A stretch of 64,000 nucleotides of DNA from Selenomonas ruminantium subsp. ruminantium ATCC 12561 (GTDB lineage: Bacteria > Bacillota > Negativicutes > Selenomonadales > Selenomonadaceae), in contig NZ_AUJE01000003.1 in NCBI RefSeq assembly GCF_000424065.1, positions 62,001 to 126,000 of the forward strand. The letters run 5' to 3'. Position numbers and translations under genes: made by a program. This document shows, piece after piece, positions 2,315 to 19,396 of the stretch. The notes below the pieces were generated by a model. It was not told the DNA's origin. It made no database searches and saw nothing but the letters and a program-made list of their open reading frames with translations. The first letter of the stretch is position 1; each line of letters starts with the position of its first letter.

Positions 2315-2740
2315 TTATATACTTTTAACACACGTAAGCGCCTCATCAAGTCCTCTCGCCAATGCCAATATCTCATTTTCATCAGCATATCTGTGGATGT
2401 GGAACCGTTCATTCCCCGATAGTATAGCCGAGAGCTGCGTCTCCTGGGTACGATAGAAAATATGTACTTCCTTGCCATGGGATTCAGCGTAAGCGAGCTC
2501 ATAGCCTACTCCCAAAGACACCTGGGTACATTCTGCCATTACTACATCACATTCCCGCAACCAGGCTGTGTCCTGTTCATAGATGGCCTTATCCCCCTTG
2601 TCCTCAACGGTAGACAGACTCAGGTCGCCCACATGCTCAGTAAGCACCTGGTGTCTCTCCTTTAAGACCGCTATAACCTTGCGGTAGAGCTCTGCGTCCT
2701 GCCGCCCCCCACGGATGGAGCCTGCAAAATACACCTTCAT
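2315..2740 (-). CDS. Nucleoside 2-deoxyribosyltransferase-like protein (copy 1)
   Basis: This 141-residue protein has the Rossmann-like NDT fold signature: MKVYFAGSIRGG at the start, D65 and E70 in ECDVVMAECTQ, and SLGVGYELAYAE with E81 at the position of the family's catalytic glutamate. Family members cleave the N-glycosidic bond of deoxynucleosides or related nucleotides (compare Rcl/DNPH1). It ends a leftward run of nucleotide-handling genes. A close copy lies at 18346-18744, and a 15-codon stub of the same start lies at 3867-3914. The C-terminus (residues 128-141) differs from copy 2. The substrate is not predictable. Confidence 0.8.
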   Translation of the reverse strand: MKVYFAGSIRGGRQDAELYRKVIAVLKERHQVLTEHVGDLSLSTVEDKGDKAIYEQDTAWLRECDVVMAECTQVSLGVGYELAYAESHGKEVHIFYRTQETQLSAILSGNERFHIHRYADENEILALARGLDEALTCVKSI

Positions 2741-2839
2741 ATTATGAGCCTCATTTCTTCTTCAAATCCAGCAGCACCTCATCGACAGATTAACACAGCA
2801 AACACTCCACATTGTAATAACAATGTCACTTTGGCGTAA

Positions 2840-3370
2840 TCAGTGACGCCTTGATGCAAACCTACCACCAGCCTGCATCATAACCCGCTCTATAATTTCT
2901 TTGACGGAAGTGCGGCGTTGATGCTTTAGTGACTGTTCCATCAAAAATAGCACGTGTTCATTAGACACATGACACATGTACTGCTGTTTTCCCATACCCT
3001 TGCGATTGAAGGCACTATTCTGTGTCCAATGCTCTGCTAGCCACGACTTACACGTACGCATATCGAGTGGCACATCGAAGTCAACGTAGTCTACATCCAC
3101 GCGATAGCCATCATTATCCCAATCCACATCCGTCTTAGCATCTTTCAGCGCCCGCGGCTGTTGTGATTCATAACAATCAGAAGTGGCTATTCCTACCGCC
3201 TGAATAGCTGTGCTAGCATGATGGATGATGAAATCACCCTTACGTATCTCCGTCATGATTTTATATCCTTGATTCTCACAACCTCTTTTATCACGTTGTG
3301 GCGACCATACATAGCCACCGTCATGTTCATGCTGGTACGTCTGATTTTGATATACATAAAATATGGACAT
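2840..3370 (-). CDS. EVE-like domain protein
   Basis: The 176-residue protein reads GDFIIHHASTAIQAVGIATSD around residues 45-65, a pattern typical of EVE/PUA-like modules that recognise modified bases and often accompany restriction or toxin genes. The ATG follows GAGGTGATAAC. It lies between the Nudix gene and NDT copy 1, apparently inserted with the Nudix gene into an ancestral ATPase-NDT pair (see the stub at 3867-3914). The C-terminal third has no recognised motif. Function beyond base recognition is unknown. Confidence 0.55.
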   Translation of the reverse strand: MSIFYVYQNQTYQHEHDGGYVWSPQRDKRGCENQGYKIMTEIRKGDFIIHHASTAIQAVGIATSDCYESQQPRALKDAKTDVDWDNDGYRVDVDYVDFDVPLDMRTCKSWLAEHWTQNSAFNRKGMGKQQYMCHVSNEHVLFLMEQSLKHQRRTSVKEIIERVMMQAGGRFASRRH

Positions 3371-3420
3371 TTAGTTATCACCTCTAAAAATATATCGCTG
3401 ACTATAACGCCAGTAATTCG

Positions 3421-3819
3421 TCATGATTGATAATCCAATCTCTTCGCAACTTTCTCCACTAGCTCCACATCTGCTGGCAACCACTGTATAGTTTGGATAC
3501 TCTTCTTATCTAACCACATAACAGCATCATGCTCTAGGAGCTTAAATTTTCCTTCTTTTACCTTTGCCCAGAAGCAGTGCATCTTGAGATGAAAGTTTGG
3601 GTAATCGTACTCAACGGTTCCAATCTTTTCACCGACTTCAATCATCGTTTCCATTTCTTCTTGAATTTCGCGCACAATCGCTTCCTCAAGCGATTCTCCA
3701 GGCTCAACTTTCCCCCCTGGAAATTCCCAACCGCCCTTAAATTCACCATAGCCCCGCTGTGCAGCCAATACCTTGCCATCTTTATATATTGCAGCGGCAA
3801 CGACTTCTATACTTTTCAT
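3421..3819 (-). CDS. Nudix hydrolase, MutT/CTP-pyrophosphohydrolase type
   Basis: A full Nudix box runs from G36 to E55 (GGKVEPGESLEEAIVREIQEE), giving G-x5-E-x7-RE-x2-EE, the Mg-binding loop that hydrolyses nucleoside diphosphates linked to X. The short 132-residue length and WEFPGGKVE context resemble MutT/NudG-like (d)NTP pyrophosphatases rather than ADP-ribose pyrophosphatases. The ATG at 3819 is preceded by GGAG; an in-frame TTG just upstream is a poorer start. It fits the nucleotide-sanitising or NAD-related theme of the locus. Confidence 0.88.
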   Translation of the reverse strand: MKSIEVVAAAIYKDGKVLAAQRGYGEFKGGWEFPGGKVEPGESLEEAIVREIQEEMETMIEVGEKIGTVEYDYPNFHLKMHCFWAKVKEGKFKLLEHDAVMWLDKKSIQTIQWLPADVELVEKVAKRLDYQS

Positions 3820-3866
3820 CAACTCGTATCTCCATCGCCTAAAACTTAAACTTCTAATAAAGGAGC

Positions 3867-3914
3867 TTATTTCAACACCACATCACGGATGGAGCCAGCA
3901 AAATATACCTTCAT
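3867..3914 (-). pseudogene. 15-codon stub of a deoxyribosyltransferase-like gene
   Basis: The frame MKVYFAGSIRDVVLK then stop repeats the first ten residues of both NDT copies exactly. It sits directly downstream of ATPase copy 1, just where an intact NDT gene follows ATPase copy 3. It marks the breakpoint where the Nudix and EVE genes were inserted, or where NDT was duplicated and cut. Confidence 0.75.
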
Positions 3915-3924
3915 TGCCCGCACC

Positions 3925-4437
3925 TCACTTCATCTTCAAGTCCAGCAGTACCTTGTCTGTCTCCCAAGGAGATATGACCGTATAGCTAATCCCAGCCCCC
4001 TCCAGAACTGTCTTGATTTCCTCGTCCTTCACCTTTGCCCGTTCCAGATTGGTCTCCTTGCGCCCATCGATGCTGATAAACTCGTCATTGCGCCGCAGAA
4101 GGTACTCCACGTTGTCAAACTTGGCGTGTTCATGCATCACCAGCTGGTCAAAAAGCTCATCCGGCTTGTTGTTGTAGATGATGTTCAGCGGCAGAGGCGA
4201 GTCGCAAACCGCATACTTTACGCCGTACCGTTCCAGCGTTTTCAGCCGATGTACCTGCTCGGCAAAAAGATACAGTTGGTCTTGCACAATGTCCGTAGCG
4301 TTCTGATACCAGAGCCACTTAGCGTATTCGCCCACCAGTTCCGTCTTATGCCCCTTGCGCTTCAGCTTCGAAAATATGTCAGCGGCGATGGTACTCTTGC
4401 CAATGCCAGCGCCGCCATAAAAATTCAGTACCTTCAA
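3925..4437 (-). CDS. NadR-like P-loop ATPase/kinase (copy 1)
   Basis: The 170-residue protein starts with a Walker A motif at residues 8-15 (GGAGIGKS) and continues with VGEYAKWLWY and CDSPLPLNIIY segments, as in the AAA_28/NadR ribosylnicotinamide-kinase family. The start is taken as TTG at 4437 because GGGAG sits eight bases upstream; the same TTG and spacing recur in all three copies. A nucleoside or NAD-precursor kinase role is plausible from the family and neighbours but unproven. It follows the terminator of the VWA gene and so probably has its own promoter. Confidence 0.7.
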   Translation of the reverse strand: MKVLNFYGGAGIGKSTIAADIFSKLKRKGHKTELVGEYAKWLWYQNATDIVQDQLYLFAEQVHRLKTLERYGVKYAVCDSPLPLNIIYNNKPDELFDQLVMHEHAKFDNVEYLLRRNDEFISIDGRKETNLERAKVKDEEIKTVLEGAGISYTVISPWETDKVLLDLKMK

Positions 4438-4521
4438 TGTAAATCTCCCGTTCGTTCCTATAATTTTCAATATCCATTATACACCAGAGAGGGGCTGTTC
4501 TCTAGCAAAACCGAACAAAAA

Positions 4522-4548
4522 GACTGCCCAGCCATCTGCCGAGCAGCC
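4522..4548 (-). terminator. Terminator after VWA gene copy 1
   Basis: On the minus strand a GGCTGCTCGGC / GGCTGGGCAGTC hairpin (with G-U pairs) is followed by TTTTTG. It lies just downstream of the VWA stop codon and corresponds in position to the cleaner hairpin at 11773-11799. Confidence 0.6.
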
Positions 4549-4560
4549 TCATAGTCGCTT

Positions 4561-5217
4561 TTATTTTCTGCCGCCACGCCGCTTTACATCCTCATCAATC
4601 TTACGCATCCAACAAGGTGCCAGTGGCTCAGAGAAGTTACGCACATGGTGGATAGCTTCCTCTAGTACTTCATAGTTGAGAGCCGTCCCTTCCGCATCAC
4701 ACTGGTAGGTAGCCGCCCTGTCAGCATGGATGCCGATATTCCCTGCAGCTGCTATGGCATCCATATTGGCCCCCAGGAACAGAAACTCCCAACCGTACTT
4801 CTCCTTCTGCCGCTCCACCATCTTCTTGACCTTCTTGTAAGTATACCGCCGACTGGCATTTTCCATGCCATCGGTGGTGATGATGAACAGCGTCTTCTCC
4901 GGCCTATCCTCATCACGAGCATACTTGTGAATGTTACCAATATGGTGAATAGCACCACCTACGGCATCCAGCAGTGCCGTGCAACCACGGACAAAGTAGG
5001 TATCTTCCGTCAGCTTTGCTACCTTTTCCATCGGCACCCTGTCGTGGATGACATCGCAGGTATCATCAAACAACACTGTGGAAACAATAGCCTCTCCCGG
5101 CTCATTCCTCTGCTTCTTGATGAGCGAGTTGAATCCGCCGATGGTATCAGCCTCCAAGCCACTCATGGAGCCACTCCTATCCAGAATGAACACGATTTCT
5201 GTTAAGCCTTTCTTCAT
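4561..5217 (-). CDS. Von Willebrand factor A domain protein (copy 1, intact)
   Basis: The VWA fold is shown by the MIDAS motif DRSGS at residues 13-17 directly after the first strand (IVFIL), by the conserved threonine region RGCTALLDAVGGA, and by the IITTDGMENAS segment that completes the metal site. There is no signal peptide or membrane segment, so the 218-residue protein is cytoplasmic and consists of little more than the VWA domain. Such proteins usually bind a partner through the metal site. Translation starts four bases after a perfect inverted repeat that contains the ribosome binding site. A frameshifted copy lies at 11817-12472. Confidence 0.88.
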   Translation of the reverse strand: MKKGLTEIVFILDRSGSMSGLEADTIGGFNSLIKKQRNEPGEAIVSTVLFDDTCDVIHDRVPMEKVAKLTEDTYFVRGCTALLDAVGGAIHHIGNIHKYARDEDRPEKTLFIITTDGMENASRRYTYKKVKKMVERQKEKYGWEFLFLGANMDAIAAAGNIGIHADRAATYQCDAEGTALNYEVLEEAIHHVRNFSEPLAPCWMRKIDEDVKRRGGRK

Positions 5218-5220
5218 TGA

Positions 5221-5273
5221 AAACGCCCCCTTATCTTTGATAGTTTTATTCTACCTAAGATAAGGGGGCGTTT
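5221..5273 (-). promoter_or_regulatory. Perfect 17-bp inverted repeat covering the VWA ribosome binding site
   Basis: The arms at 5221-5237 and 5257-5273 are exact reverse complements (core CCCCCTTATCTT / AAGATAAGGGGG) around a 19-base loop. The arm nearest the gene contains the GGGGG that serves as Shine-Dalgarno for the ATG at 5217. As RNA the hairpin would hide the site; as DNA it could be an operator. The same element with the same loop precedes VWA copy 2 (12476-12528). There is no U-tract, so a simple terminator is unlikely. Confidence 0.7.
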
Positions 5274-5274
5274 G

Positions 5275-5291
5275 GTCGCCTGTCATGCGAC
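5275..5291. promoter_or_regulatory. GTCGC-N7-GCGAC dyad motif, copy 1
   Basis: A 5-bp dyad separated by seven bases (CTGTCAT). It lies between the ADP-ribosylglycohydrolase stop and the VWA inverted repeat. Two further copies occur at 6288-6304 and 12530-12546, each just downstream of one gene and upstream of the next. It is probably a regulator site or a small RNA stem. Confidence 0.5.
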
Positions 5292-5302
5292 ATTTCGAGA
5301 TG

Positions 5303-6232
5303 TCATGCTTGATGATTGCTGCGGAGATATTCGTTCACACCAGTAAACATTGTGTGGAATGCCTTACGGCCGCCATTCTTTGCCTCAATGTACTGCCTCC
5401 ACCGCCGCAGCACATCCTTTAGCGGATCGTCCAGATAAGAATATGCTTTATCCTTAATCCAGTCTGGAATACCATAGGCTGCTTCCGCAATACTTCCGGT
5501 GATGGCTGCCAGCGTATCGCTGTCACCACCAAGGGATATGGCATTGCGTATAGCATCCTCGAAGTCCGTACTTTCCAAGAATGTGATTATGGCCTGTGGC
5601 ACTGTATCCTGACAGGTTTCATTGAACTTATAGTCAGGGCGAATCTCCTCCAATGTGCGTGACAAATTGTAGCCGTACTCCTTCTCGATATGTTCCTTGA
5701 CACGCCTTTTGCATTCTTCTGTGTCATCATTGATGGGCTTTCCATAATCGATATAATATCCACCAAAGTTAAAGCGGTTCATGAATATTGCATCGGCAGT
5801 TGCCATAGCTCCTTTTATACCCTCCGGATGGTTATGGGTAACCTCCGCAGACAGTCTTGCTACGGCTCTGCCATTTGACGGCCACATTCCCGTCCTGGCA
5901 CAGAAACCGCAATCCATGACCCAGGCACAGGGAGAAACACGCATGGCTGAACCATTGCCAAAGCTGTTATACGGCTCACGTTTTTCTGAAAACAGCCATG
6001 CTCCAAACCTGCCACCATAGCCAGCATCCGGGTACATCCTGCCATATTTCTTCATGGCATCGATAAAGTCATCTTTCTCACCGCCGTTCATGACTGCTTC
6101 AGCTACAGCACAGGTCATAACAGTATCATCGGTAAAGAAACAGTCATCCCGGAACAGTGGAAATTCCTTCGTCTTGATATTGTTCCACTCATAGACAGAA
6201 CCTACGATATCGCCAACAATTGCACCTAACAT
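5303..6232 (-). CDS. ADP-ribosylglycohydrolase (DraG/ARH family)
   Basis: The protein shows the family's di-metal signature: GAIVGDIVGS at residues 3-12, FTDDTVMT with D35-D36-T37, HNHPEGIKGA in the middle and GGDSDTLAAI near residue 236. Enzymes of this family remove ADP-ribose from modified proteins, nucleic acids or small molecules. The start at 6232 is chosen because AAAGGAG lies about ten bases upstream; GTG at 6241 is less well placed. It follows macro-fusion copy 1 in the same direction, with only a dyad motif and about 80 bases between them, suggesting a joint ADP-ribose reversal function. Confidence 0.92.
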   Translation of the reverse strand: MLGAIVGDIVGSVYEWNNIKTKEFPLFRDDCFFTDDTVMTCAVAEAVMNGGEKDDFIDAMKKYGRMYPDAGYGGRFGAWLFSEKREPYNSFGNGSAMRVSPCAWVMDCGFCARTGMWPSNGRAVARLSAEVTHNHPEGIKGAMATADAIFMNRFNFGGYYIDYGKPINDDTEECKRRVKEHIEKEYGYNLSRTLEEIRPDYKFNETCQDTVPQAIITFLESTDFEDAIRNAISLGGDSDTLAAITGSIAEAAYGIPDWIKDKAYSYLDDPLKDVLRRWRQYIEAKNGGRKAFHTMFTGVNEYLRSNHQA

Positions 6233-6287
6233 TTCGACCACTCCTTTCCTTGATGATTCTATTCTAGCAGAAGCATCTGCTGGTGCG

Positions 6288-6304
6288 GTCGCTTGTCATG
6301 CGAC
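6288..6304. promoter_or_regulatory. GTCGC-N7-GCGAC dyad motif, copy 2
   Basis: Same dyad as at 5275-5291 with spacer TTGTCAT. It lies in the short gap between the macro-fusion gene (stop at 6312) and the start of the ADP-ribosylglycohydrolase gene. Confidence 0.5.
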
Positions 6305-6311
6305 AATTTCA

Positions 6312-7382
6312 TCATCCCAAAAGAGGCTGCTGGAATGCAAACAGAGTTTCGTTGATAGTGAAGATGTCATACTTCTGCCGCTGGATAAAATACTCCACGA
6401 TTATATCCGCCTTACTACTGCGGGACAGGGCATAGCCTGCCCGTCCGATAAAGTCTTTAGTTTCATCCAGATTCAACTGCAGCGCTATCGCAAAAGCTAT
6501 AGCCGTGGCCTTGCTTGGCTTGTAGGCAGGGTTGTTGCGGATTTTAGAGAATAGCTTGCGATCAACATTGGCTCGCTTATAGACCTCTGGATCTGTCTTG
6601 CCTTTGGCATCGATAAGCCGCAGTAACGCCTCTGAGAAAGTATCGTCTACTTCCTTCAGCAAATCCTCCAAAGAACGTTCCGTGGGCTTACTCATCCACT
6701 TAGGGATATCGATAAATGCGTCTTCATCCGGGTGCTGCCCTGGTGTCTCAAAAGCCGGAAGTCCATCCCTTATATCATGTGGCGCTTGTCCTGCCGCTTC
6801 AAAATTCCTGCGCCTTTCCCGCAAATCCCCACGATATTCTTCATCCAGTAGCTCTTCGATATATCTCTCATCAATAAAGCTCTGCACGTCCTCGAACAGG
6901 CTGCTGGAAATCTTGAAAGCCTTCTGATCAAACACCACCAGATAGACATCCATATCATGATCAGCCAGGAACTCCCGGATGGCCTGAGTTGCCACAGCTA
7001 TGGCAATCTCAGATGGGCAGCCGAACACACCTGCCGAGATAAGCGGAAAGGCCACGGAGGAGCACTTGTTCTCCGCTGCCAGCTTTAGTGAATTTGCATA
7101 GCAATCAGCCAACAGTTCCCTCTCACCATGTTTCCCGTCCTGCCACACCGGCCCTACCGTATGGATAACAAATCTGGCATGCAGCTTATAAGCCAGAGTG
7201 ATTTCTGCTTTGCCTGTAGCAATGTCACCAATTTTCTCCCGTGCTGCCAGCAACTCTGCTCCGGCGGCCTTGTGTATGGCCCTATCAACACCGCCTCCCA
7301 CTATTGGGCGAGGATTAGCAGTATTGACGATGGCATCCACTTGCATCTTCGTTATATCATTTCTGACAATCTCTAATGGCAT
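6312..7382 (-). CDS. Macro domain fused to a C-terminal helical (HTH-like) domain, copy 1
   Basis: Residues 1-170 form a macro domain: DAIVNTANPRPIVGGGVDRA is the ADP-ribose loop, followed by VIHTVGPVW and the phosphate loop ISAGVFGCPSE. After a polar linker, residues 240-356 are helical (SEALLRLIDAKGKTD, DRKLFSKIRNNPAYKPSK), resembling an XRE-like or regulator domain. The macro fold binds or hydrolyses ADP-ribose derivatives; the second domain may couple this to DNA or a partner. The ATG at 7382 follows GGGGAGTGAGG. A paralogue lies at 13542-14573 with a diverged linker. Confidence 0.85.
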   Translation of the reverse strand: MPLEIVRNDITKMQVDAIVNTANPRPIVGGGVDRAIHKAAGAELLAAREKIGDIATGKAEITLAYKLHARFVIHTVGPVWQDGKHGERELLADCYANSLKLAAENKCSSVAFPLISAGVFGCPSEIAIAVATQAIREFLADHDMDVYLVVFDQKAFKISSSLFEDVQSFIDERYIEELLDEEYRGDLRERRRNFEAAGQAPHDIRDGLPAFETPGQHPDEDAFIDIPKWMSKPTERSLEDLLKEVDDTFSEALLRLIDAKGKTDPEVYKRANVDRKLFSKIRNNPAYKPSKATAIAFAIALQLNLDETKDFIGRAGYALSRSSKADIIVEYFIQRQKYDIFTINETLFAFQQPLLG

Positions 7383-7420
7383 AGCTTGCCTCACTCCCCT
7401 AACTCCACGTATTAATCGTC

Positions 7421-8026
7421 CTAATTGTCAAATGCATTTTCTTCCTTTTGCATGTTCCCAATCAAAAGAATTCCATATATGCAGTTTACCAGCTTCATAC
7501 AATCCAATGCTGTAAAATCTCTGGTAGAACGACCATGCATTACCCAATGTCTATTCAAATTTCGAGGTTCATCTTGTGAAAAATGTATACTTTCAGATAA
7601 GGATTCTATTGTCGCGCCAAAAGTCATATATAAAATCAAAACAGAAAACTCATCATCATTTAAAGGAACATCTTCATTAATACTTTCAAAAATTTGCTTT
7701 GATCTTTCTTTCATTCCTGTTGCTAAATTTCCGCTATATCTGGTTAGCAGACCGTCTATAATGGAAAACATAGCAACAATTGATATGTCGTAATCTTCTC
7801 TATGATAAGCTGAAATCGCCTGTTCAAAAATCCGCTGATGATTATGTAATAGTTTACAACTAATGCACTCTTTTATTGTATTGTTTATCTTGGCATTATC
7901 GTTCGATGTTTCAAAATTATATAAAACTTTATCTATTTCATCATTAATAAGAATGTTGTCTATCTGCTCATTTGTAAGTGGCATCCAATGTACATATTGA
8001 TTTTTCTTAAGTTTATCAATAGCCAT
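7421..8026 (-). CDS. Unknown AT-rich helical protein with Rx4H motif
   Basis: I do not recognise the family. The 201-residue protein is largely helical and ends with LNRHWVMHGRS, an arginine-x4-histidine pattern like that of HEPN RNases, preceded by a conserved-looking helical core (MFSIIDGLLTRYSG). Its base composition is visibly more AT-rich than its neighbours. It follows the small gene at 8038-8277 with 11 bases between, probably in one operon. HEPN nuclease is only a suggestion. Confidence 0.6.
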   Translation of the reverse strand: MAIDKLKKNQYVHWMPLTNEQIDNILINDEIDKVLYNFETSNDNAKINNTIKECISCKLLHNHQRIFEQAISAYHREDYDISIVAMFSIIDGLLTRYSGNLATGMKERSKQIFESINEDVPLNDDEFSVLILYMTFGATIESLSESIHFSQDEPRNLNRHWVMHGRSTRDFTALDCMKLVNCIYGILLIGNMQKEENAFDN

Positions 8027-8037
8027 TAAAGGGCGAG

Positions 8038-8277
8038 TTATCTTGGTGTTAATTGGGTCATGACAGAAAAATACTCTGCATTGATAAAAGCTATAGTTTC
8101 TTGCATTGGCCTAAACATTTCTTGCCATGCATATACCATAGGAGTCATTGCAGTTATTGTGGGTTGTATCGCTTGTTGTATAGCTGCAAATTGTTTTGCT
8201 ACAGGTGCAGCCAATACAGCCATTCCCCGTATTGATTGTGTCGCATTTTCTGCATTGAAATTATTTTTATTAGGCAT
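8038..8277 (-). CDS. Small protein of unknown function
   Basis: A 79-residue protein starting MPNKNNFNAENATQSIRGMA. The start at 8277 is supported by AAAGGTGAT just upstream, while the longer frame has no site. The sequence is rich in Ala, Gln, Met and Pro, with no clear membrane helix. It precedes the Rx4H protein and may act with it. No family is recognised. Confidence 0.5.
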   Translation of the reverse strand: MPNKNNFNAENATQSIRGMAVLAAPVAKQFAAIQQAIQPTITAMTPMVYAWQEMFRPMQETIAFINAEYFSVMTQLTPR

Positions 8278-8512
8278 ACTTATCACCTTTATAAAACATA
8301 TCAAAAACTCATATAATCCCCGTATATTATTCGTTATAAACTACCGTTATTCCTGTTTTAACAAGGATTTTGCACACCCTGCAAACGATGCCCTTTCAAA
8401 CATCTACACCCTACAAACGGGGCACTTTAAGTCATGCACCCCCCTCAGAACAAAATTGTCTCAAAACCGGGAATACCTCTCCACCCCCGTTTTCATGCAG
8501 CTCCCCCACAAT

Positions 8513-8563
8513 GCACAAAGGCCCCGAAGCCCCTTATTTCATAGGGTTTCGAGGCCTTTGTGC
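8513..8563. terminator. Strong bidirectional hairpin
   Basis: A long stem (GCACAAAGGCC.CGAA.CCC pairing with GGG.TTCGAGGCCTTTGTGC) in the gene-free stretch 8278-8627, with the same GGCC-CGAAG core as the terminator at 2185-2225. It separates the first and second gene blocks. No coding sequence is seen in the rest of that stretch. Confidence 0.7.
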
Positions 8564-8627
8564 CTTCGTATGGTTGTATCAAATAAGCTATGATTTTGTC
8601 CATTAATCTTGTAATCACATAACAATC

Positions 8628-8686
8628 ATTTTACCATAAAATAAGAAGGTAAGACAAGAAAATTGGCACGGGACTTTGCCCGTGCC
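8628..8686 (-). repeat. 59-bp direct repeat with terminator, copy 1
   Basis: This 59-bp element (starting ATTTTACCATAAAATAAG) is repeated at 16197-16255 with one mismatch and in the same orientation. Its right half is a GGCACGGG-CCCGTGCC hairpin (8665-8686) that can end leftward transcripts. The two copies bracket the middle gene block of about 7.5 kb. Confidence 0.85.
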
Positions 8687-8691
8687 GCCTG

Positions 8692-8877
8692 TTACCCTAT
8701 ATGAATTTCTGTTCCATCCTTGAATGTTACGCTGATATCTTCCTTGCTGTATATGGTCATGAAGTCCACAATCGTTCCCCACAAACCTTCGTCAAACTCC
8801 GTTACTGATGCGTCTTGGGCAGCCAGTGCTTTGACGAATGCCCCAAGCCGCTCTGCCTTAGCATGCCGGGCCACCAA
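8692..8877 (-). pseudogene. C-terminal remnant of a large serine recombinase
   Basis: The 61-codon frame contains KAERLGAFVKAL, TEFDEGLWGTIVDFMTIYSK and VTFKDGTEIHIG, the typical tail of Clostridia-type large serine recombinases. The catalytic N-terminal and zinc-binding parts are missing. It is joined in a different frame to the first codons of an endonuclease III-like gene. It suggests a past mobile element here. Confidence 0.6.
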
Positions 8878-8933
8878 TCCGGCTGGCCATAGGCGGTTAT
8901 GAGTCTGTCATAAATTTGTTTTGAGGTCAGCAT
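8868..8933 (-). pseudogene. First 22 codons of an endonuclease III-like gene
   Basis: The ATG at 8933 overlaps the macro gene stop (ATGCTGA) and opens [20 protein letters not shown], the usual start of HhH-GPD endonuclease III-domain proteins. After WWP the sequence switches to recombinase remnant. The tight overlap suggests it was once the last gene of the sirtuin-macro operon. Confidence 0.5.
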
Positions 8934-9442
8934 TTCTGCAATGCTCCATCATACACCAGCTTTGTCCGCTCATCAAAAAGCACCCACAATATTTCATCAA
9001 ATGCTTTTGGTTGCTCCTTTATTATTTCTCTGACCGTCCCAATGGCAATCTCCGCTGCCTGTTGCACGGGATAGGAATACACGCCTGTTGAGATTGATGG
9101 AAAAGCCACGCTACGGATACCATACTCCATGGCCAGCTCCAGCGAATGCCGATAGCAACTGGTCAGCAGTTCTGCCTCACTATGAGCACCGCCATGCCAT
9201 ACCGGCCCTACTGTATGAATTACATAGTCACATGGCAACCTGTATGCCTTGGTGATTTTTGCCTGTCCCGTTTTGCAGCCATTGAGCGTCCGGCACTCTG
9301 CTAGAAGCTCCGGGCCTGCCGCCCGGTGGATAGCTCCATCAACACCTCCACCGCCAAGCAGGCTCTCATTGGCAGCATTAACAATGGCATCGGCATAATG
9401 CTTTGCTGTAATGTCTCCTAACTCAGTTCTGATTACGGTCAT
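8927..9442 (-). CDS. Stand-alone macro domain protein (O-acetyl-ADP-ribose deacetylase type)
   Basis: A complete 171-residue macro domain of the YmdB/MacroD class: [20 protein letters not shown] with the catalytic-type Asn-Gly loop, [12 protein letters not shown], and the phosphate loop [12 protein letters not shown]. Members cleave O-acetyl-ADP-ribose and mono-ADP-ribosyl esters. Its start overlaps the sirtuin stop by four bases (ATGA), so the two are translationally coupled: the sirtuin would make O-acetyl-ADP-ribose and this enzyme would remove it. Confidence 0.93.
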
Positions 9443-10185
9443 ACCGCACCTCCGTTTTTCCTAACCGCTGCACTCAGCACCTTGCCTATTGGTTCCCGAA
9501 TGACCAGATTAGCACTCATATCTGCCTTGGTAGCAGTTTTATTGATAACCACCAGATTATCGCCCCGAAAATAATCCAATAGACCTGCCGCTGGATACAC
9601 AGCCAACGAAGTGCCGCCTACAATAAGCGTATCAGCCTTGCGAATTGCCCGCACAGCGGCTTCGATTACCAGTTCATTGAGTGCTTCTTCATATAAAACC
9701 ACATCTGGCCGCACGATGCCGCTGCAGTCTTTACAAATAGGAACCGGTTGGTTTTGCAGGGCATATTCCAGCGCATATTGCTTGCCGCAGTCCATACAAT
9801 GCCAGTGCATAATTGAGCCATGCAGTTCGTACACATTTTCACTGCCAGCGCTTTGATGAAGACCATCTATATTTTGCGTGACCACTGCCAGCAGCTTTCC
9901 TTTGCTTTCCAGCTCAGCCAAAGCATAATGCCCTAAATTGGGCTTGGCATCAAGAAATACCATCTTGGCAAAGAAAAAGTCAAAAAAATCATGTGGGTGG
10001 TCACACAGAAAGGTATGAGATACCATTTCTTCCGGGCTGAACTCCCGGTTAAGTTTTTGGCTGTATATACCGTCAGCACTGCGAAAGTCTGGTATGCCTG
10101 ACTCTGTGGACATACCGGCACCGCCAAAGAATACCATATTGGAACTGGTGTCCATAATTCTCGCCAGTTCATCAATCTTGCTCAT
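9439..10185 (-). CDS. Sirtuin NAD-dependent protein deacylase
   Basis: All sirtuin motifs are present: [15 protein letters not shown] at 21-35, TQNIDGLH at 103-110, the catalytic H122 in ELHGS, and a zinc ribbon at C130, C133, C151 and C154. The catalytic His and QNID argue for genuine deacylation rather than the SirTM ADP-ribosyl-transferase class usually linked to macro genes. GGAGGTG precedes the ATG. It is coupled to the macro gene downstream and follows the YqfO-like/DUF1653 gene. Confidence 0.93.
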
Positions 10186-10211
10186 TGTCTGGCACCTCCA
10201 TCATGGTACAG

Positions 10212-10829
10212 TCATTTTTTCTCAAACCGATACTTCTGCACTGCCTGCGGGTATTTCTCGTGATCAACCTCGCTCATGAACATATCAAGTGGCCGGCAGT
10301 ATATACCGTAGTTACCATAAAGCGCCTGATACACGCAGTAAATCTCCTGCGACTCTGTGTGCATGACAGGGCAGGCCACAATCTTATACTCGTTATTCTT
10401 GAAGTGGTACCACACTTCTCCACTCTGCGGAATAGCCCTGCGATACTTGGCACCGAGCAATCGCCGCTGCTCCTGATTTTCTTTCATTTCTTCCATCAAC
10501 GCTTCCTCCCTAGGCGCACATAGTGGGATGACATTTATGACTGGTTCTTCATAGGGATGGACAGTTCTTATAGCCCGTAAGGTGCTGTTCAGCCTGTCGT
10601 TGCTGACATTGACCTCTACCTTGAGCTCCTCTGCCTCACTCACTGTGCCTTCAGTTCCATTATACGAGCTGGCTCCCTGAAGCGGTCTCCATGTACCCTT
10701 GACACGCGAGTAAGACAAGCAATTGTCGTAATTGCCAATATGCCCGGCCTCCACTGACTGCAGTGCCCTTTGCAGCATTGAGAAATGAGATTCCGGTATG
10801 TATATTTCCAGTTTAAACCAATCCATCAT
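10212..10829 (-). CDS. YqfO-like (NIF3 insert) domain fused to DUF1653
   Basis: Residues 1-100 match the CutA/PII-like insert domain of NIF3/YqfO proteins (KLEIYIPESH, AGHIGNYDNCLSYS, VHPYEEPVINVIPL) without the metal-binding NIF3 halves. Residues 130-200 form a DUF1653 domain (YHFKNNEYKIVACPVMHTES, YQALYGNYGIYCRPLDMF). The start ATGATG at 10829 follows GAGGAATA and overlaps the end of the YaiI gene. The fusion probably senses or binds a small ligand; its activity is not known to me. Confidence 0.75.
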   Translation of the reverse strand: MMDWFKLEIYIPESHFSMLQRALQSVEAGHIGNYDNCLSYSRVKGTWRPLQGASSYNGTEGTVSEAEELKVEVNVSNDRLNSTLRAIRTVHPYEEPVINVIPLCAPREEALMEEMKENQEQRRLLGAKYRRAIPQSGEVWYHFKNNEYKIVACPVMHTESQEIYCVYQALYGNYGIYCRPLDMFMSEVDHEKYPQAVQKYRFEKK

Positions 10830-11274
10830 TATTCCTCGACATCTCCAACAGACGAGCCAGCCCATCTGCGAACTTCTCATTGTCTGCCTCGGTGCGCTTG
10901 GCCGGGCCTTTCAGATGCACCTTCTTCTTTGACCGTCTGGCTTTTTTCGCCATATGGCGCTCCATCAGCAGGCGGTCGATGTTTTCAACAGTATACTGCC
11001 AGCCATTCTGATGTATGGCGTAGGCCCCCTTTCCCAGCGCCATCGCCGCCACGCCGTAGTCCTGTGTTACCACAACATCACCTGTCCGACACAGATTGAC
11101 AAGAGCAATGTCTACTGCATCCACTCCGGCACCGATTACCCTGACTTCGCTATAAGTCGAATGCAGCACATGATTGGTGTCGCATAGGAGCGTAACGGCT
11201 ACGCCATATTTTTTCGCCACCTGCTCCGTTTCTTTCACTACAGGGCAGGCATCGGCATCAACGTAAATACGCAT
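10813..11274 (-). CDS. YaiI/YqxD (UPF0178, DUF188) family protein, copy 1
   Basis: MRIYVDADACPVVKE at the start and VVTQDYGVAAMALGKGA, HMAKKARRSKKKVHLKGPAKR in the body are diagnostic of this PIN/NYN-like family of putative nucleases. The C-terminus is full length here (KFADGLARLLE). The start is set at the conserved MRIYVDADACP. It sits between ATPase copy 2 and the YqfO-DUF1653 gene. A copy with an altered end is at 17852-18349. The biochemical role of the family is not firmly established. Confidence 0.9.
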   Translation of the reverse strand: MRIYVDADACPVVKETEQVAKKYGVAVTLLCDTNHVLHSTYSEVRVIGAGVDAVDIALVNLCRTGDVVVTQDYGVAAMALGKGAYAIHQNGWQYTVENIDRLLMERHMAKKARRSKKKVHLKGPAKRTEADNEKFADGLARLLEMSRNNDGLV

Positions 11275-11306
11275 CAGACAAGATTTCCCTCCAGATGACC
11301 CAGTCC

Positions 11307-11687
11307 TCACTTCATCTTCAAGTCCAGCAACACCTTATCCGTCTCCCACGGGGATATGACCGTATAGCTAATACCAGCCCCATCCAAAACGGCCTTGATT
11401 TCTTCGTCCTTCACCTTGGCCCGCTCCAGATTGGTTTCCTTGCGTCCATCGATGCTGATGAATTCGTCATTCCGGTAGAGTAAATATTCCACATTGTCAA
11501 ACTTGGCATGCTCATGCACCACCAGCTGGTCTTGCACAATGTCCGTGGCATTCTGGTACCAGAGCCACTTAGCGTACTCGCCCACCAACTCCGTTTTATG
11601 CCCCTTGAGCTTCAGCTTCGAAAAAATATCTGCGGCGATGGTGCTCTTACCGATACCTGCACCGCCGTAAAAATTCAGCACCTTCAA
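11307..11687 (-). CDS. NadR-like P-loop ATPase (copy 2), internally deleted
   Basis: Starts at the same TTG context as the other copies and keeps Walker A, but 44 residues are missing between VQDQL and VMHEH/VVHEH. The gap lies exactly between two near-identical short sequences (CAGCTGGTC and CAGTTGGTC in copy 1), and the frame is preserved. The lost part includes the CDSPLPLN segment, so the 126-residue product is likely inactive or altered. The following gene is YaiI copy 1 rather than NDT. Confidence 0.7.
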   Translation of the reverse strand: MKVLNFYGGAGIGKSTIAADIFSKLKLKGHKTELVGEYAKWLWYQNATDIVQDQLVVHEHAKFDNVEYLLYRNDEFISIDGRKETNLERAKVKDEEIKAVLDGAGISYTVISPWETDKVLLDLKMK

Positions 11688-11772
11688 CTTAAAACCCCTG
11701 TTCGTTCTTAGAATTTTACAATAATCATTATACACCACAGAAGGGCTGTTCTCTACCATTACCGAACAAAAA

Positions 11773-11799
11773 GGCTGTCTAGCACATTGCCAGACAGCC
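11773..11799 (-). terminator. Terminator after VWA copy 2
   Basis: A perfect 8-bp stem (GGCTGTCT / AGACAGCC) with an 11-base loop; on the minus strand it is followed by TTTTTG. It ends the VWA copy 2 transcript before ATPase copy 2. Confidence 0.75.
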
Positions 11800-11816
11800 A
11801 ACCACATCCCTAAATT

Positions 11817-12472
11817 TTAATTTCCTCTGCCACCACGCCGCTTTACATCCTCATCAATTTTTCGTTTCCAGCTTGGTGCCAGCATCTTGTCGCTACTACG
11901 TACATGATGGATAGCCTCCCCCAGAACTTCATAGTTGAGCGCCGTCCCTTCCTCATCACACTGATAGGTAACCGCCCTGTCAGCATGGATGCCTATATTC
12001 CCTGCAACTGCAATAGCATCCATATTGGCCCCCAAAAACAAAAACTCCCATCCGTACCTCGCCTTCTGCCGCTCCACCATCTGCTTGACCTTCTTGTAGG
12101 TATACCGCCGACTGGCATTTTCCATTCCGTCTGTGGTGATGATAAACAGCGTCTTCTCCGGCCTGTCCTCATCACGAGCGTACTTGTGAATGTTGCCGAT
12201 GTGGTGAATAGCACCCCCTACAGCATCTAGTAGCGCCGTGCAACCACGGACAAAGTAGGTATCCTCCGTCAGCTTTGCTACCTTTTCCATCGGCACCCTG
12301 TCGTGAATAACATCGCAGGTATCATCAAACAGCACCGTGGAAACCAGCGCCTCTCCTGGCTCCTTACGCTGCTTCTTGATGAGCGAGTTCCACCGATGGT
12401 ATCAGCCTCCAAGCCACTCATGGAGCCACTCCTGTCCAAAATAAACACGATTTCTGTTAAACCTTTCTTCAT
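11817..12472 (-). pseudogene. VWA domain gene copy 2, frameshifted
   Basis: The first 28 codons read exactly as in copy 1, including the DRSGS MIDAS motif. Near 12391 four bases present in copy 1 (GTTGAATCC against GTTCC) are missing, so the frame is lost; the remainder reads in another frame from VSTVLFDDTCDVI to the end. Apart from this the copies are close, so inactivation looks recent. It retains the inverted repeat and dyad motif upstream. Confidence 0.85.
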
Positions 12473-12475
12473 TGA

Positions 12476-12528
12476 AAACGCCCCCTTATCTTTGATAGTT
12501 TTATTCTACCTAAGATAAGGGGGCGTTT
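12476..12528 (-). promoter_or_regulatory. Perfect 17-bp inverted repeat before VWA copy 2
   Basis: Identical in arms and loop to the element at 5221-5273, with the right arm again carrying the GGGGG ribosome binding site of the downstream gene. Confidence 0.7.
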
Positions 12529-12529
12529 G

Positions 12530-12546
12530 GTCGCCTGCCATGCGAC
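12530..12546. promoter_or_regulatory. GTCGC-N7-GCGAC dyad motif, copy 3
   Basis: Dyad with spacer CTGCCAT, immediately next to the inverted repeat as in copy 1 and downstream of the PhzF gene stop. Confidence 0.5.
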
Positions 12547-12566
12547 AAATATATCTAATCGGTTTA

Positions 12567-13475
12567 TCACATTTCTATCTCTGTAGCAAAGACAATAACA
12601 GCCTGTCCAAAAATCTGAATTTTAGTTGGAAGTTGCCCTTTCTTTTCCACACGCACACGCATTGTACCAGGCCGGCCAATAGCTTCTCCCTGGATAATGT
12701 AGAATTCAAAAACATCTGATGCTGCCAATTCCTGACACAAGCCAAAATGAACTAAATAGGCTCCCAACGGGCCATTGGCATTACCTGTAACGGGATCTTC
12801 AGCAATACCAATAGCAGGCGCAAACATACGTCCATGCACCAATACCTTTTCTTCTGGGTGCAAGGTAAATACATAATAACCATTACAGCCAATCTCTCCA
12901 CTAATGGCAGAAAGCTTCACCAAATCAGGCTGCAACCTATCCAAAAGACAACGTTCCTTTATCCCTACCATCACCTTTGAATGGCCTGCTGATGCAATGG
13001 CAACTGGACAGTCCTCCCGTAAATCTGCCAACGTAATCCCCAAAGCTTCAACAATTCGCACAATCAGTTCATGAGCAAAGGGCGCCGTAATCTCCGGTTT
13101 TCCCTGGGTCATGACGATGGTGTAATCTCCTGTCTCATCCTTTTCAATGTCAATTGGTAAAATCCCCGCTTTTGTCTTTTGAACCCAACAGCTTGTAGAT
13201 AGCTTTTCTTCTATCGCTCTCACATAATGTGCCGCAATTGTGGCATGACCACAAATTGGCACCTCTGTCGTGGGAGTAAAATATCGCACTTCTACATCAT
13301 AATCCGGCTTTTTCCCTGTAAAGATAAAGGCCGTTTCCGAATTGTTCAACTCCCGAGCCAATTGCTGCATCTGACGCTTGGTCAGTCCATCAGCATGATA
13401 TACCACCCCGGCGGGATTGCCGGAGAATTTTTCTCTTGTGAATGAATCCACCTGATAAACACGGTACTTTTTCAT
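12567..13475 (-). CDS. PhzF family isomerase/epimerase
   Basis: The two-fold diaminopimelate-epimerase-like PhzF family is shown by YQVDSFTREKFSGNPAGVV at the N-terminus, NNSETAFI with the catalytic glutamate, RYFTPTTEVPICGHATIAA, and EDPVTGNANGPLGAYL in the second half. The ATG at 13475 follows GAGAGGG. It takes the place held by the ADP-ribosylglycohydrolase in the first block, between a macro fusion and a VWA gene. The substrate is unknown; most homologues act on small metabolites. Confidence 0.92.
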   Translation of the reverse strand: MKKYRVYQVDSFTREKFSGNPAGVVYHADGLTKRQMQQLARELNNSETAFIFTGKKPDYDVEVRYFTPTTEVPICGHATIAAHYVRAIEEKLSTSCWVQKTKAGILPIDIEKDETGDYTIVMTQGKPEITAPFAHELIVRIVEALGITLADLREDCPVAIASAGHSKVMVGIKERCLLDRLQPDLVKLSAISGEIGCNGYYVFTLHPEEKVLVHGRMFAPAIGIAEDPVTGNANGPLGAYLVHFGLCQELAASDVFEFYIIQGEAIGRPGTMRVRVEKKGQLPTKIQIFGQAVIVFATEIEM

Positions 13476-13541
13476 CTTAATTCCCTCTCCGGATTGTCTA
13501 CAGCGGTGCTGAACAAAATCAAGCATGTCTTCTGGTATATT

Positions 13542-14573
13542 CTAGCTGCCTAAAAGAGGCTGTTGGAATGCAAACAGTGTTTCATTTATGGCAAAAATAT
13601 CGTACTCCGCCCGCTGAATAAAATACTCCACGATAATATCCGACTTGCTGCTATGGGACAATGCATACCCTGCCCGGCCTATAAAATCCTTTGTTTCATC
13701 AAGATTCAGCTCCAAGGCCACTGCAAATGCCAAGGCCGTAGATTTGCTCGGCTTGTAAGCGGGGTTATTGCGAATTTTCGAGAAGAGCTTGCGGTCTACA
13801 TTAGCTTTCTTGTAAACCTCCGGGTCAGTCTTTCCCTTAACATCGATAAGCCGCAGCAGCGACTCTGAGAAGGTATCATCCACTTCGGCCAACAAATCCT
13901 CCAAGGAGCGCTTTCTCTCAGGCTTGAGAAATTTGGGCAAATCTGATACTTCGGCAGCACAGGCTTCATCGCCTAAATAAGTTGGTGCCTCCGTAAATCT
14001 GCGCCTCTCCCGATAGTCATCCCTATATTCATCTTCCAGTAGTTTCTCTACATATCTCGCATCCAGATAGCTTTGTACATCCTCAAACAGGCTGCTGGAG
14101 ATTTTGAACGCCTTATGGTCAAACACCACAAGGTATACCTCCATCTCATGGTCATAGAGGAAATTACGTATTGCCTGAGTTGCCACCGCTATGGCTATCT
14201 CCGAGGGGCAGCCGAATACTCCTGCCGAAACAAGTGGGAAGGCTATAGAACCGCAACCGTTATCCATCGCCAACTGCAGGGAATTTTCATAGCAGCTGGC
14301 CAATAACTCCCGCTCCCCATGCTCGCCACCCTGCCATACAGGACCTACTGTGTGAATGACGAACTTGGCATGCAGGCCATAGGCTGGTGTAATCTCTGCC
14401 TTACCAGTAGCAATGGCACCGATTTTCTTCCGTGCCGTCAGCAGCTCTGCTCCTGCTGCCTTATGTATTGCCCGGTCAACGCCACCACCTACTATAGGCT
14501 TGGAGTTCGCCGTATTGACGATGGCATCCACCTGCATTTTCGTTATATCGTTGCGTACGATTTCTAATGGCAT
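13542..14573 (-). CDS. Macro domain fused to helical (HTH-like) domain, copy 2
   Basis: A paralogue of 6312-7382: the macro domain (DAIVNTANSKPIVGGGVDRA, VSAGVFGCPSE) and the C-terminal domain (DRKLFSKIRNNPAYKPSK, DETKDFIGRAGYAL) are closely conserved, while the linker near residues 195-235 is shorter and diverged. Conservation of both ends argues that both domains are under selection. It is the first gene of a leftward run with PhzF. Confidence 0.85.
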   Translation of the reverse strand: MPLEIVRNDITKMQVDAIVNTANSKPIVGGGVDRAIHKAAGAELLTARKKIGAIATGKAEITPAYGLHAKFVIHTVGPVWQGGEHGERELLASCYENSLQLAMDNGCGSIAFPLVSAGVFGCPSEIAIAVATQAIRNFLYDHEMEVYLVVFDHKAFKISSSLFEDVQSYLDARYVEKLLEDEYRDDYRERRRFTEAPTYLGDEACAAEVSDLPKFLKPERKRSLEDLLAEVDDTFSESLLRLIDVKGKTDPEVYKKANVDRKLFSKIRNNPAYKPSKSTALAFAVALELNLDETKDFIGRAGYALSHSSKSDIIVEYFIQRAEYDIFAINETLFAFQQPLLGS

Positions 14574-14591
14574 GATTGTCACATCCTGATA

Positions 14592-15828
14592 TCAAATATT
14601 AACACCAAATGTTTTTATAACTTCCTCGCTGTCCCTGCCGGAAATCGGCTTGCCTGTAGCAATAGCAATGGCATCGAGGATTTTACCTGCCCGATGTGCG
14701 ATAAACTGCTCAAAATCATCGGTCATGCAATCGTCCATATCAATCCAATGGCTGGCAAGAAAATCGCGCAAATCTCCCTGTTCCACTTTCTTCTTTTCAA
14801 TTCGTGACAGGTAGATACTGGGAGCCACACCACCAATTTCACGGTTGGTGCTATAGGAGATAGGAGTTTTATTGATAATGGAATCCCATTTGATATTATC
14901 GTATCCCTTGCTCATACAGTAAGCCTTGGGAAAGATGTGGTGTATATCAATGCCAGATGCCTTGTAAAGCGCGATGTCCATTTCCTGTCCGCTGATAAAA
15001 TCACGGCTGTGATTCTTCATTATAAGTGCCATAACCCCCTTATACGCTGCACTCCTTCTGGTCTGAAGCATCAGCAGGCGCATAGGGTTAAAATAGGAAG
15101 AAACTCCACCCTGATTGACATTTTCGAACACTTGACACACTGCTTCCCTAGGCGTTTCTTTGTCCAGGCTTATTACAGGAATTTGGTAACGTGATACCTG
15201 TGCTATGATTTTCTCTATGAACTTTAGGTACTCCTGACATACATCCTGGTCACCTTGGTGATACTGCATATATCCGATTTGCCACTGGGTAGCCTTTACG
15301 CTATCCAAGATAATATTTAGAGGAAACAGTTTTATTTTTATACTCGTTTTCAGCAGTCGATACGTCCAAGTCAATCTTCCTGCCGAAATCAGAAGTAATT
15401 TGTTTTGTCTCTGGTACGGAGACAATAGCATCTACACGGTCCACAGCTGGGTCTATAGCCTTAGTAATATCTATGTAATAAAACCGCCATATCTTTCCAC
15501 CCCTGTCAGTCCTTGTTTCTACAGCATTTGGGCTGCAGAGTGACGAGTAGATTGATGTGAGCCTTTGTTGACCATCCAAAATCAAATACTCCGGCTTAGC
15601 ATTAGTTGTCGGTGCTCCCTCAATTGTACGATATTTAAAACGTACATTCTCATTGCCATACTCTAGAAACATCGCGGCTCCCACTGGAAAGTTCTGCGTA
15701 ATACTAGCAATGAGACCTCGAATGCGGTTATCATCCCAGACCCATCCACGCTGGAAATCAGGGAGTTGAATCTTCCCCCTGCTAATGTCTTTCATCAAAT
15801 CCAGAATTGGCGTGTCATTTGTCTTCAT
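14592..15828 (-). pseudogene. DUF262/HNH nuclease gene with a frameshift
   Basis: The first part has the DUF262 signature (IQLPDFQRGWVWDDNRIRGL, ILDGQQRLTSIY); the second carries the HNH-like IDIHHIFPKAYCMSKGYDN. The two halves are in different frames and join near 15325 at an A-rich run (AAAAATAAAACTG), where one extra A would explain the shift. Rejoined, the protein would be about 410 residues and complete. This could be a true mutation or a sequencing error in the homopolymer. The likely start is the second ATG (15828), with AAGGAG upstream. Confidence 0.8.
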
Positions 15829-15849
15829 GCAGTTCATCTCCTTGATTAT

Positions 15850-16071
15850 CTATTCCACTCCCGGAAACGAATTCACATACTTAATTTTGATATCCGGAAA
15901 GCTGTCTACAAACTGGACGGTGAAGTCTTCGCCGCTTTCCACGAACTTCCACTCACCAATATCATCCGGAAATGACTCCACGACCTTAACTTTAAGGTCA
16001 GGGAAGTGTCCAGTCACCTCCACGAATATCCATTTCGCTAATACTACCGTAATTCCTGCCTTCGTAGCCAT
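15850..16071 (-). CDS. Small repeat-strand protein, possibly septoil-knot-like
   Basis: A 73-residue protein starting MATKAGITVV after AGGTGAAGG. It is made of recurring strand units ending in FPD or FPG (GHFPDLKVKVVESFPDD, VQFVDSFPDIKIKYVNSFPG). Such alternating short beta units resemble the small 7(1) septoil-knot family, which is found in many bacteria without known role. It lies before the frameshifted DUF262 gene in the same direction. Confidence 0.55.
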   Translation of the reverse strand: MATKAGITVVLAKWIFVEVTGHFPDLKVKVVESFPDDIGEWKFVESGEDFTVQFVDSFPDIKIKYVNSFPGVE

Positions 16072-16196
16072 TTTGCCTTCACCTTTAGCATGACTAAAAA
16101 AAATTGGTGCATGAACCAGCTCCATGCACCATCACTTATCAATTCTTGTCTTTTTTGATTACCTTCATTATCTGTTCTTCTGTCCAACCACTAGCA

Positions 16197-16255
16197 ATTT
16201 TACCATAAAATAAGAAGTTAAGACAAGAAAATTGGCACGGGACTTTGCCCGTGCC
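16197..16255 (-). repeat. 59-bp direct repeat with terminator, copy 2
   Basis: Matches 8628-8686 with one mismatch, including the GGCACGGG-CCCGTGCC hairpin (16234-16255), which here terminates the flavodoxin transcript. Directly to its left, minus-strand 16139-16196 encodes an orphan protein tail (SGWTEEQIMKVIKKDKN, stop) with no upstream gene, another sign of a breakpoint. Confidence 0.85.
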
Positions 16256-16307
16256 ATACTTTCCCTATGCGCCATTGCTATTGCAAGCCTTATCCCATCT
16301 GAGTTTC

Positions 16308-16793
16308 TTATTGTATCTTAAGCAACTGCTCGCCCATCCGCTGACCATAGGTTACAAACAAATCCTTGAAACTTTCAATGTCCTGACTCATCCCCACTGG
16401 CCCAAGATGGATTACAGGCTTGCCACAGGAAGAACCACCGGAATAAGTCATCATCCCCATGACCATCATGAATGTCAGTATTTCCTGAATAGCATTTTCA
16501 GCTCCTCCGTGGATATACTGCTCCGTAGCATATGCACCACCGAGCTTGCCTGCCAGTTTCAGCTTGCCAGCATTGCTCTCCAGCCAACTTTTCATTTTTG
16601 CGGTAACAGAAGCCATATAAGTTGGCGAGCCAAAAATCATCAGATGGGACTGCTGGATATATTCAAAGTCAGCCTCATCGATGTTGAAGCACCGTGCCTC
16701 AATATCATCAACGGATTTCAGTCCCTCGGCTATAAAGGTTGCGGCCCTTTCAGTTGTATGTGTCCTCGAATCAAAAACTATTGCTGCTTTCAT
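16308..16793 (-). CDS. Flavodoxin-like protein
   Basis: The FMN phosphate loop is degenerate but recognisable (VFDSRTHTTERAA near residues 6-18), followed by IFGSPTYMASVTAKMKSWL and GAYATEQYIHGGAENAIQEI, as in NAD(P)H:quinone-type flavodoxins (WrbA/FldA-like). The 161-residue length fits. GAGAGGTAG precedes the ATG. It is the last gene of the third block, after the metallo-beta-lactamase-fold gene, and could supply electrons to a neighbouring enzyme. Confidence 0.88.
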   Translation of the reverse strand: MKAAIVFDSRTHTTERAATFIAEGLKSVDDIEARCFNIDEADFEYIQQSHLMIFGSPTYMASVTAKMKSWLESNAGKLKLAGKLGGAYATEQYIHGGAENAIQEILTFMMVMGMMTYSGGSSCGKPVIHLGPVGMSQDIESFKDLFVTYGQRMGEQLLKIQ

Positions 16794-16806
16794 TTGCTAC
16801 CTCTCC

Positions 16807-17604: not shown

Positions 17605-17607
17605 CAG

Positions 17608-18744: not shown

Positions 18745-18754
18745 CGTTCCATCC

Positions 18755-19267: not shown

Positions 19268-19396
19268 TTACAATGCTCCTGTTCTTTCTTCAAATTTTTC
19301 AATATCTATTATACACCACATAAGGAATGTTCTCTACAATGCACTGCCGCCCGTACCAAACATGTAGCCTACAATGGAAAGTAATAATTGGAAAGG

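Follow-up and report, generated by a model that had tools for sequence, protein, structure and literature searches.

The window, the whole 64,000-nucleotide stretch of Selenomonas ruminantium DNA that we analyzed, carries two identical 53-mers (5221–5273 and 12476–12528), each a perfect inverted repeat with 17-bp arms and a 19-nt loop placed before a VWA gene. No inverted repeat with such arms appeared in 100 shuffles. On the − strand, the order at the first copy is GTCGCATGACAGGCGACC (the operator), the 17-nt 5′ arm, an unpaired A, a stretch beginning GGTAGAAT, the 17-nt 3′ arm containing the Shine-Dalgarno sequence (SD) AAGGGGG (5232–5226), TCA, and the VWA ATG at 5217–5215, four bases on. 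An earlier note on this DNA had reported the same arms and loop at both loci, with the SD inside the 3′ arm and the ATG four bases later, and its description proved exact on both points. The features considered below are as follows.

5275–5291, − strand: operator palindrome GTCGCATGACAGGCGAC, its center near −42 of the predicted start
5257–5273, − strand: 5′ arm (anti-SD), in the spacer between the operator and the −10
5248–5253, − strand: −10-like hexamer TAGAAT, in the hairpin loop, 20 nt from the operator
5241, − strand: predicted transcription start (A), in the loop, with a pyrimidine-purine context in relatives
5221–5237, − strand: 3′ arm with SD AAGGGGG (5226–5232)
4561–5217, − strand: VWA gene, 218 aa, with a match to Pfam VWA_CoxE below the cut-off
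5303–6232, − strand: DraG-like ADP-ribosylglycohydrolase gene, co-directional with the VWA gene, ending 29 nt before the 5′ arm
6288–6304, − strand: same operator before the DraG-like gene, with a −10 at 6261–6266, a predicted start at 6254, and no significant SD hairpin
6312–7385, − strand: protein with a macro domain and a Cro/C1-like HTH (macro-HTH), candidate operator binder
11817–12472, − strand: second VWA gene, frameshifted after residue 28, likely a pseudogene
12476–12528, − strand: second hairpin, with a −10 at 12503–12508 and a predicted start at 12496
12530–12546, − strand: operator, second copy
13542–14573, − strand: second macro-HTH gene

These features lie within a larger − strand region (2315–19300) in which a gene set of AAA kinase-like, VWA, macro-HTH, DUF188, and nucleoside deoxyribosyltransferase genes is repeated, with two or three copies of each. 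The VWA protein itself matched no NCBIfam model (E up to 0.1) and no PADLOC model (E up to 0.01). Elsewhere in the window, SIR2 and macro-domain genes with overlapping ends adjoin one another at 8927–10185 as a sirtuin-macrodomain pair, a 602-aa protein encoded at 317–2125 matches the PADLOC models HEC-05 and relatives, and a 59-nt repeat with 98% identity, containing a terminator-like stem, occurs at 8628–8686 and 16197–16255.

The 113-nt stretch around the hairpin folds at −40.7 kcal/mol, compared to −20.7 on average for 200 shuffles, none of which was as good (z −6.2), and in this fold of the leader RNA the SD is fully paired; the hairpin loop contains an extra 5-bp stem. From the predicted start onward the RNA folds at −5.8 kcal/mol, and the 17-bp stem is gone. 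The earlier note took the conservation of arms and loop between the two copies as a sign of function. Both copies are part of a single recent duplication (159 nt, 96% identical), and the second VWA gene is broken, its frame shifting after residue 28 and reaching a stop at residue 65; the identity of the copies is thus weak evidence of function. The VWA arrangement is also present on the S. ruminantium plasmid pSRC2, with a single mismatch and a single G-U pair in the 5′ arm.

The promoter element and its occurrence

The promoter element consists of the palindrome GTCGC-N7-GCGACC followed by 20 nt, TANNNT, and a predicted start 7 nt on. The genome of the strain contains five exact palindromes, four of them of the promoter-element kind; a further DraG-like copy on another contig has the operator upstream and TAGAAT at 20 nt, as at 6288–6304. 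Among 85 distinct contexts (116 loci searched), 77 had a −10-like hexamer exactly 20 nt from the palindrome, compared to 11 at the next commonest distance. In the 76 non-redundant VWA elements, position −1 was C or T in 75 and position +1 was A or G in all 76. The −10 pattern had played no part in choosing 46 of the elements (that of the window and 45 found through protein similarity); in all 46 the predicted start was a pyrimidine-purine step, compared to 0 of 46 one base to either side, so the predicted start position, 5241 in the loop in the window, is independently marked.

No conserved −35 box was found in the VWA promoter. A simple promoter scan of the same strand gave another weak candidate, ATGACA-18-TATCTT at 5286–5257, and did not list TAGAAT, because the latter lacks a −35 hexamer; we prefer TAGAAT because it is conserved. 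With the −10 and predicted start lying inside the hairpin, the VWA mRNA from its own promoter is expected to be without the 5′ arm, leaving read-through RNA as the only form in which the SD would be hidden, an arrangement that we refer to as a lock.

VWA homologues were collected as 80 loci from named genomes; in the family, 87 of 151 genomes had a match and 30 loci were fetched. When 299 genomes of the phylum were scanned with the pattern, it occurred at 47 places distributed over 40 genomes (four of the places in the genome of the strain), compared to 3 for the reversed pattern. Thirty of these loci were fetched, 17 places being outside the fetched set; 25 of the 30 lead into VWA genes (two sharing the context of a third) and five (L290, L291, L292, L298, and L313) lead elsewhere, so that the element is for the most part specific to VWA and DraG-like genes. 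From L298:1501 onward, the promoter pattern, with a good −10 and SD, stands before a gene that is neither VWA nor DraG and could be a further target or a chance occurrence. Scanning IMG/VR with the pattern gave at least 120 loci, at least nine of which have a VWA or DraG element; among the matches listed, the viral-collection contigs with such an element are L143, L145, L150, L153, L162, L169, L170, L186, and L243. No similar DNA was found in the phage collection.

Pairing between promoter spacer and leader

The spacer from −31 to −13 has almost no conserved sequence (0.02–0.48 bits). To measure its complementarity to the leader, we calculated spacer-leader duplex energies for 84 elements. The mean was −18.7 kcal/mol for native pairs, compared to −11.1 for swapped pairs and −12.8 for the best of 5000 permutations, whereas ordinary genes of the same loci gave −10.7 native and −10.5 swapped; L037, L094, and L301, in which the assigned start is far from the element, were dropped from both tests. 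A z below −2 was reached by 57 of the 84 elements compared to 24 of 262 ordinary genes. At loci without an exact palindrome, 16 of 24 gave a variant site and eight gave none, one site (L040) being spurious by eye; z fell below −2 at 8 of the 16 variant sites, and the start was a pyrimidine-purine step at all 16.

The earlier note had asked whether orthologous VWA genes occur without the repeat, and here the outcome was divided: 20 of 76 related VWA elements with the same promoter did not reach z < −2, and the other 56 did. As a significant hairpin was missing from these 20 and from seven of eight DraG elements, the lock is not essential to the promoter. We rejected the idea that the hairpin belongs to every gene with the operator, only one of the eight DraG elements having one.

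Of 532 SD bases in folded read-through RNA, 433 have their partner upstream of the start and 2 downstream of it, and 97 are unpaired. Across 76 elements, SD pairing rose from 0.38 in the own transcript to 0.82 in read-through RNA, compared to 0.43 and 0.55 for ordinary genes (n = 259). When upstream parts were swapped, SD pairing was still 0.55, compared to 0.77 for native parts, and only 28 of 86 elements lay in the top 5% (L037, with its −10 at 19 nt, was dropped from this test). Two layouts recur. In Selenomonadaceae and several Clostridia, the 5′ arm lies between the operator and the −10; in the Gemmiger/Flavonifractor type (genes with a TATCCT −10), it covers the −10 and discriminator, and the −10 itself can thus act as the anti-SD.

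Compensatory change was assessed in alignments whose rows were hand-picked by leader layout. The Selenomonadaceae alignment had 21 cells changed on both sides, compared to 6.7 in shuffles (0 of 500 as high), and a second group had 6 compared to 2.4 (2 of 500 as high). A stricter count of pairs changed on both sides was matched by 40 of 500 shuffles for the Selenomonadaceae and by 70 of 500 for the second group, and covariation in a third group was uninformative. Two loci whose layout differed from that of their group were excluded, L072 from the second group and L108 from the third; the first alignment also omits Selenomonadaceae leaders that differ in length, L035 and L130 among them. The elements are related by descent, and p-values thus overstate their independence.

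In a Faecalibacterium-type group (L044:3900–4003, L087:2627–2724, and L271), the hairpin extends over the −10 and start, and a T-run stands between it and the SD; this hairpin is perhaps a read-through-specific terminator that takes the place of SD masking.

A candidate regulator of the operator

Of the 80 loci, 65 encode a protein that joins a macro domain to an all-helical C-terminal domain, and in 36 of these its gene ends no more than 260 nt ahead of the VWA start. Of 56 palindrome-bearing loci, six showed no macro-HTH domain, some of these six being short of flank. The N-terminal part is YmdB/MacroD-like. The last 122 residues were modeled with a mean pLDDT of 94.7, and the C-terminal model aligned with the Cro/C1 regulators SinR, DdrO, C.Esp1396I, and 434 Cro at Z 6.7–7.2 (1.9–3.3 Å over 63–69 residues), values for which Z under 8 may mean a common arrangement only. 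Sequence and structure searches gave weak or null results: HTH_26 matched two of four proteins scanned, below its cut-off (E 0.007 and 0.055); Foldseek with the C-terminal domain gave no hit under E 0.001, solved regulators being above E 0.05; and a sequence search of solved structures with the HTH profile gave no match. Unlike Cro/C1-type (XRE) regulators, the macro-HTH protein has its HTH fused behind a YmdB/MacroD-like macro domain.

The triplet at the start of model helix 41–49, by our reading of the model the place of the recognition helix, is of the DRK class in 51 of 61 rows and SKQ in seven (L037, L050, L094, and L105, in which triplet or operator is unreadable, are not in the table). 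All seven SKQ rows (L042, L055, L066, L075, L080, L088, and L095) have the variant operator GTC[CT]C-N7-TTGACC, compared to none of the 54 others, and the three TKQ rows have a G before the palindrome. L075 falls within a supported DRK group, apart from the other six SKQ proteins, L075 and L088 being long branches, and a single SKQ clade was rejected (AU p 0.004). HTH triplet and operator have switched jointly at least twice. This joint change suggests that the macro-HTH protein is the likely operator binder.

The operator near −42 and the lack of a conserved −35 box suggest activation, and the macro-HTH protein is probably an activator. In length and in its −42 position, the operator resembles that of lambda cI at OR2/PRM. 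The ligand of the regulator is perhaps ADP-ribose or a derivative. Searches of the open PMC literature turned up no paper whose title and abstract deal with this operator or with a macro-HTH regulator of VWA genes.

Proposed mechanism and its alternatives

Taken together, we consider it probable that the inverted repeat is a read-through lock around a regulated promoter, in which RNA from the own promoter would have a free SD, read-through RNA would have a hidden SD, and the macro-HTH protein is the probable reader of the operator. The VWA promoter would comprise the operator GTCGC-N7-GCGAC near −42, no conserved −35 box, and a −10 and start inside the hairpin. The mRNA made by polymerase starting there would have its 5′ end in the loop, no 5′ arm, and a free SD, whereas RNA entering from a co-directional upstream gene would contain both arms and hide the SD; VWA protein would thus be made only with its own promoter on. 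The operator would be read by the nearby-encoded macro-domain/Cro-C1-HTH protein, probably as an activator. A mechanical comparison of ORFs showed that 65 of 78 elements have a co-directional frame ending near the palindrome, at most 60 nt before it in 57; the median stop lies 8 nt before the operator, and such frames give a reason for a lock. In the window, the DraG-like gene at 5303–6232 is a possible source of read-through into the VWA leader.

The earlier note proposed an RNA switch or operator rather than a terminator. Its sense that the element is functional, its SD-hiding RNA structure, and its dismissal of a terminator in the window stand, but it missed the apparent promoter inside the hairpin and the separate palindromic operator at 5275–5291. 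A hairpin present in the normal VWA mRNA that a ligand, a protein, an sRNA, or temperature opens, as in a riboswitch, thermosensor, or protein-controlled switch, would account for the very stable fold that hides the SD. We think this unlikely: in relatives as in the window, the two arms stand on either side of the −10 and pyrimidine-purine start; spacer sequence is unconserved; and from one lineage to another the position of the arm with respect to the −10 changes by ~10 nt. Moreover, Rfam gave no match above the gathering score in the window, and in 18 related loci gave three known riboswitches, none at the element. As the promoter appears to lie inside the hairpin, the switch is most likely a choice of start site, between own and read-through transcripts, rather than ligand sensing. 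The flanking of the −10 by the two arms in the window would suit an operator in the DNA at which a bound repressor covers the −10. We regard this as quite unlikely, however, given that complementarity is kept across lineages and spacer sequence is not, that the second arm overlaps the SD in most strong-stem elements, that DraG promoters with the same operator mostly lack the inverted repeat, and that the conserved palindrome is a separate site at 5275–5291.

An intrinsic terminator or attenuator of the upstream gene strikes us as very improbable, despite a G+C-rich stem between co-directional genes and the T-run after the hairpin over the −10 in the Faecalibacterium-type group (L044, L087, and L271). 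The stem in the window is followed by TCAATG, with no T-run; a terminator scan with a loop limit of 8 nt, which could miss a 19-nt loop, listed none at this hairpin; and in most strong-stem elements the 3′ arm overlaps the SD. The 159 nt at 96% identity between the copies is what would be expected if the repeat were a chance feature that looks conserved only through recent duplication, but the same layout with kept pairing occurs in other genera and families, and the swapped and ordinary-gene controls kept the signal distinct, leaving chance with hardly any probability.

The read-through lock has likenesses in known systems. In IS10/Tn10, fold-back protects against outside promoters: read-through RNA folds and hides the transposase start, with the arm supplied by the terminal repeat of the element. 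Here, in contrast, the arm is part of the regulated promoter of a non-transposon gene. Portions of two papers (PMC3014915, PMC2988022) describe a similar arrangement for phage T4 gene e (lysozyme), soc, and I-TevI, in which the SD is hidden in long read-through RNA and the short RNA, owing to the position of a late promoter of the gene, lacks the 5′ strand of the inhibitory hairpin. The VWA element resembles these genes as there described, in that an SD hidden in read-through RNA is combined with an own promoter that would give a short RNA without the 5′ strand. This promoter placement is seen in sequence (the −10 at a fixed 20 nt and the start in 46 of 46 elements), and the hiding of the SD in upstream-started RNA is predicted by folding alone. 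The differences from T4 are that the VWA genes are a bacterial family, that their −10 is of the housekeeping type and their palindromic operator lies at −42, and that the spacer or the −10 itself is the anti-SD.

Part of PMC9503650 describes ADP-ribosylglycohydrolase/vWA systems with Nudix- or WYL-HTH factors, presented there as negative, and proposes that they counter viral ADP-ribosylation; section 3.8 of that paper does not include a macro-domain regulator among those it names. As far as that description goes, the systems are alike in that an ADP-ribosylglycohydrolase and a vWA protein occur with an HTH factor, the sensor domain of which may handle ADP-ribose, but the candidate sensor here is a macro domain and the position of the site suggests activation.

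A broader reading, which we judge about evenly balanced, is that these elements represent a widespread promoter class whose core (spacer or −10) is complementary to the SD, acting as a promoter in DNA and as a translation lock in read-through RNA. Control would come from a new one-component regulator joining a macro-domain ADP-ribose sensor to a Cro/C1 HTH, giving a doubly leak-proof ADP-ribose response. If correct, a phage-like anti-leak device would operate in a bacterial gene family and would have been kept by compensatory change over wide distances, and an operator, together with a candidate transcription factor of the macro-domain type, could be assigned to a poorly understood ADP-ribose-linked gene cluster. 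Searching for promoters with a core complementary to the SD downstream might then offer a general route to leak-proof genes.
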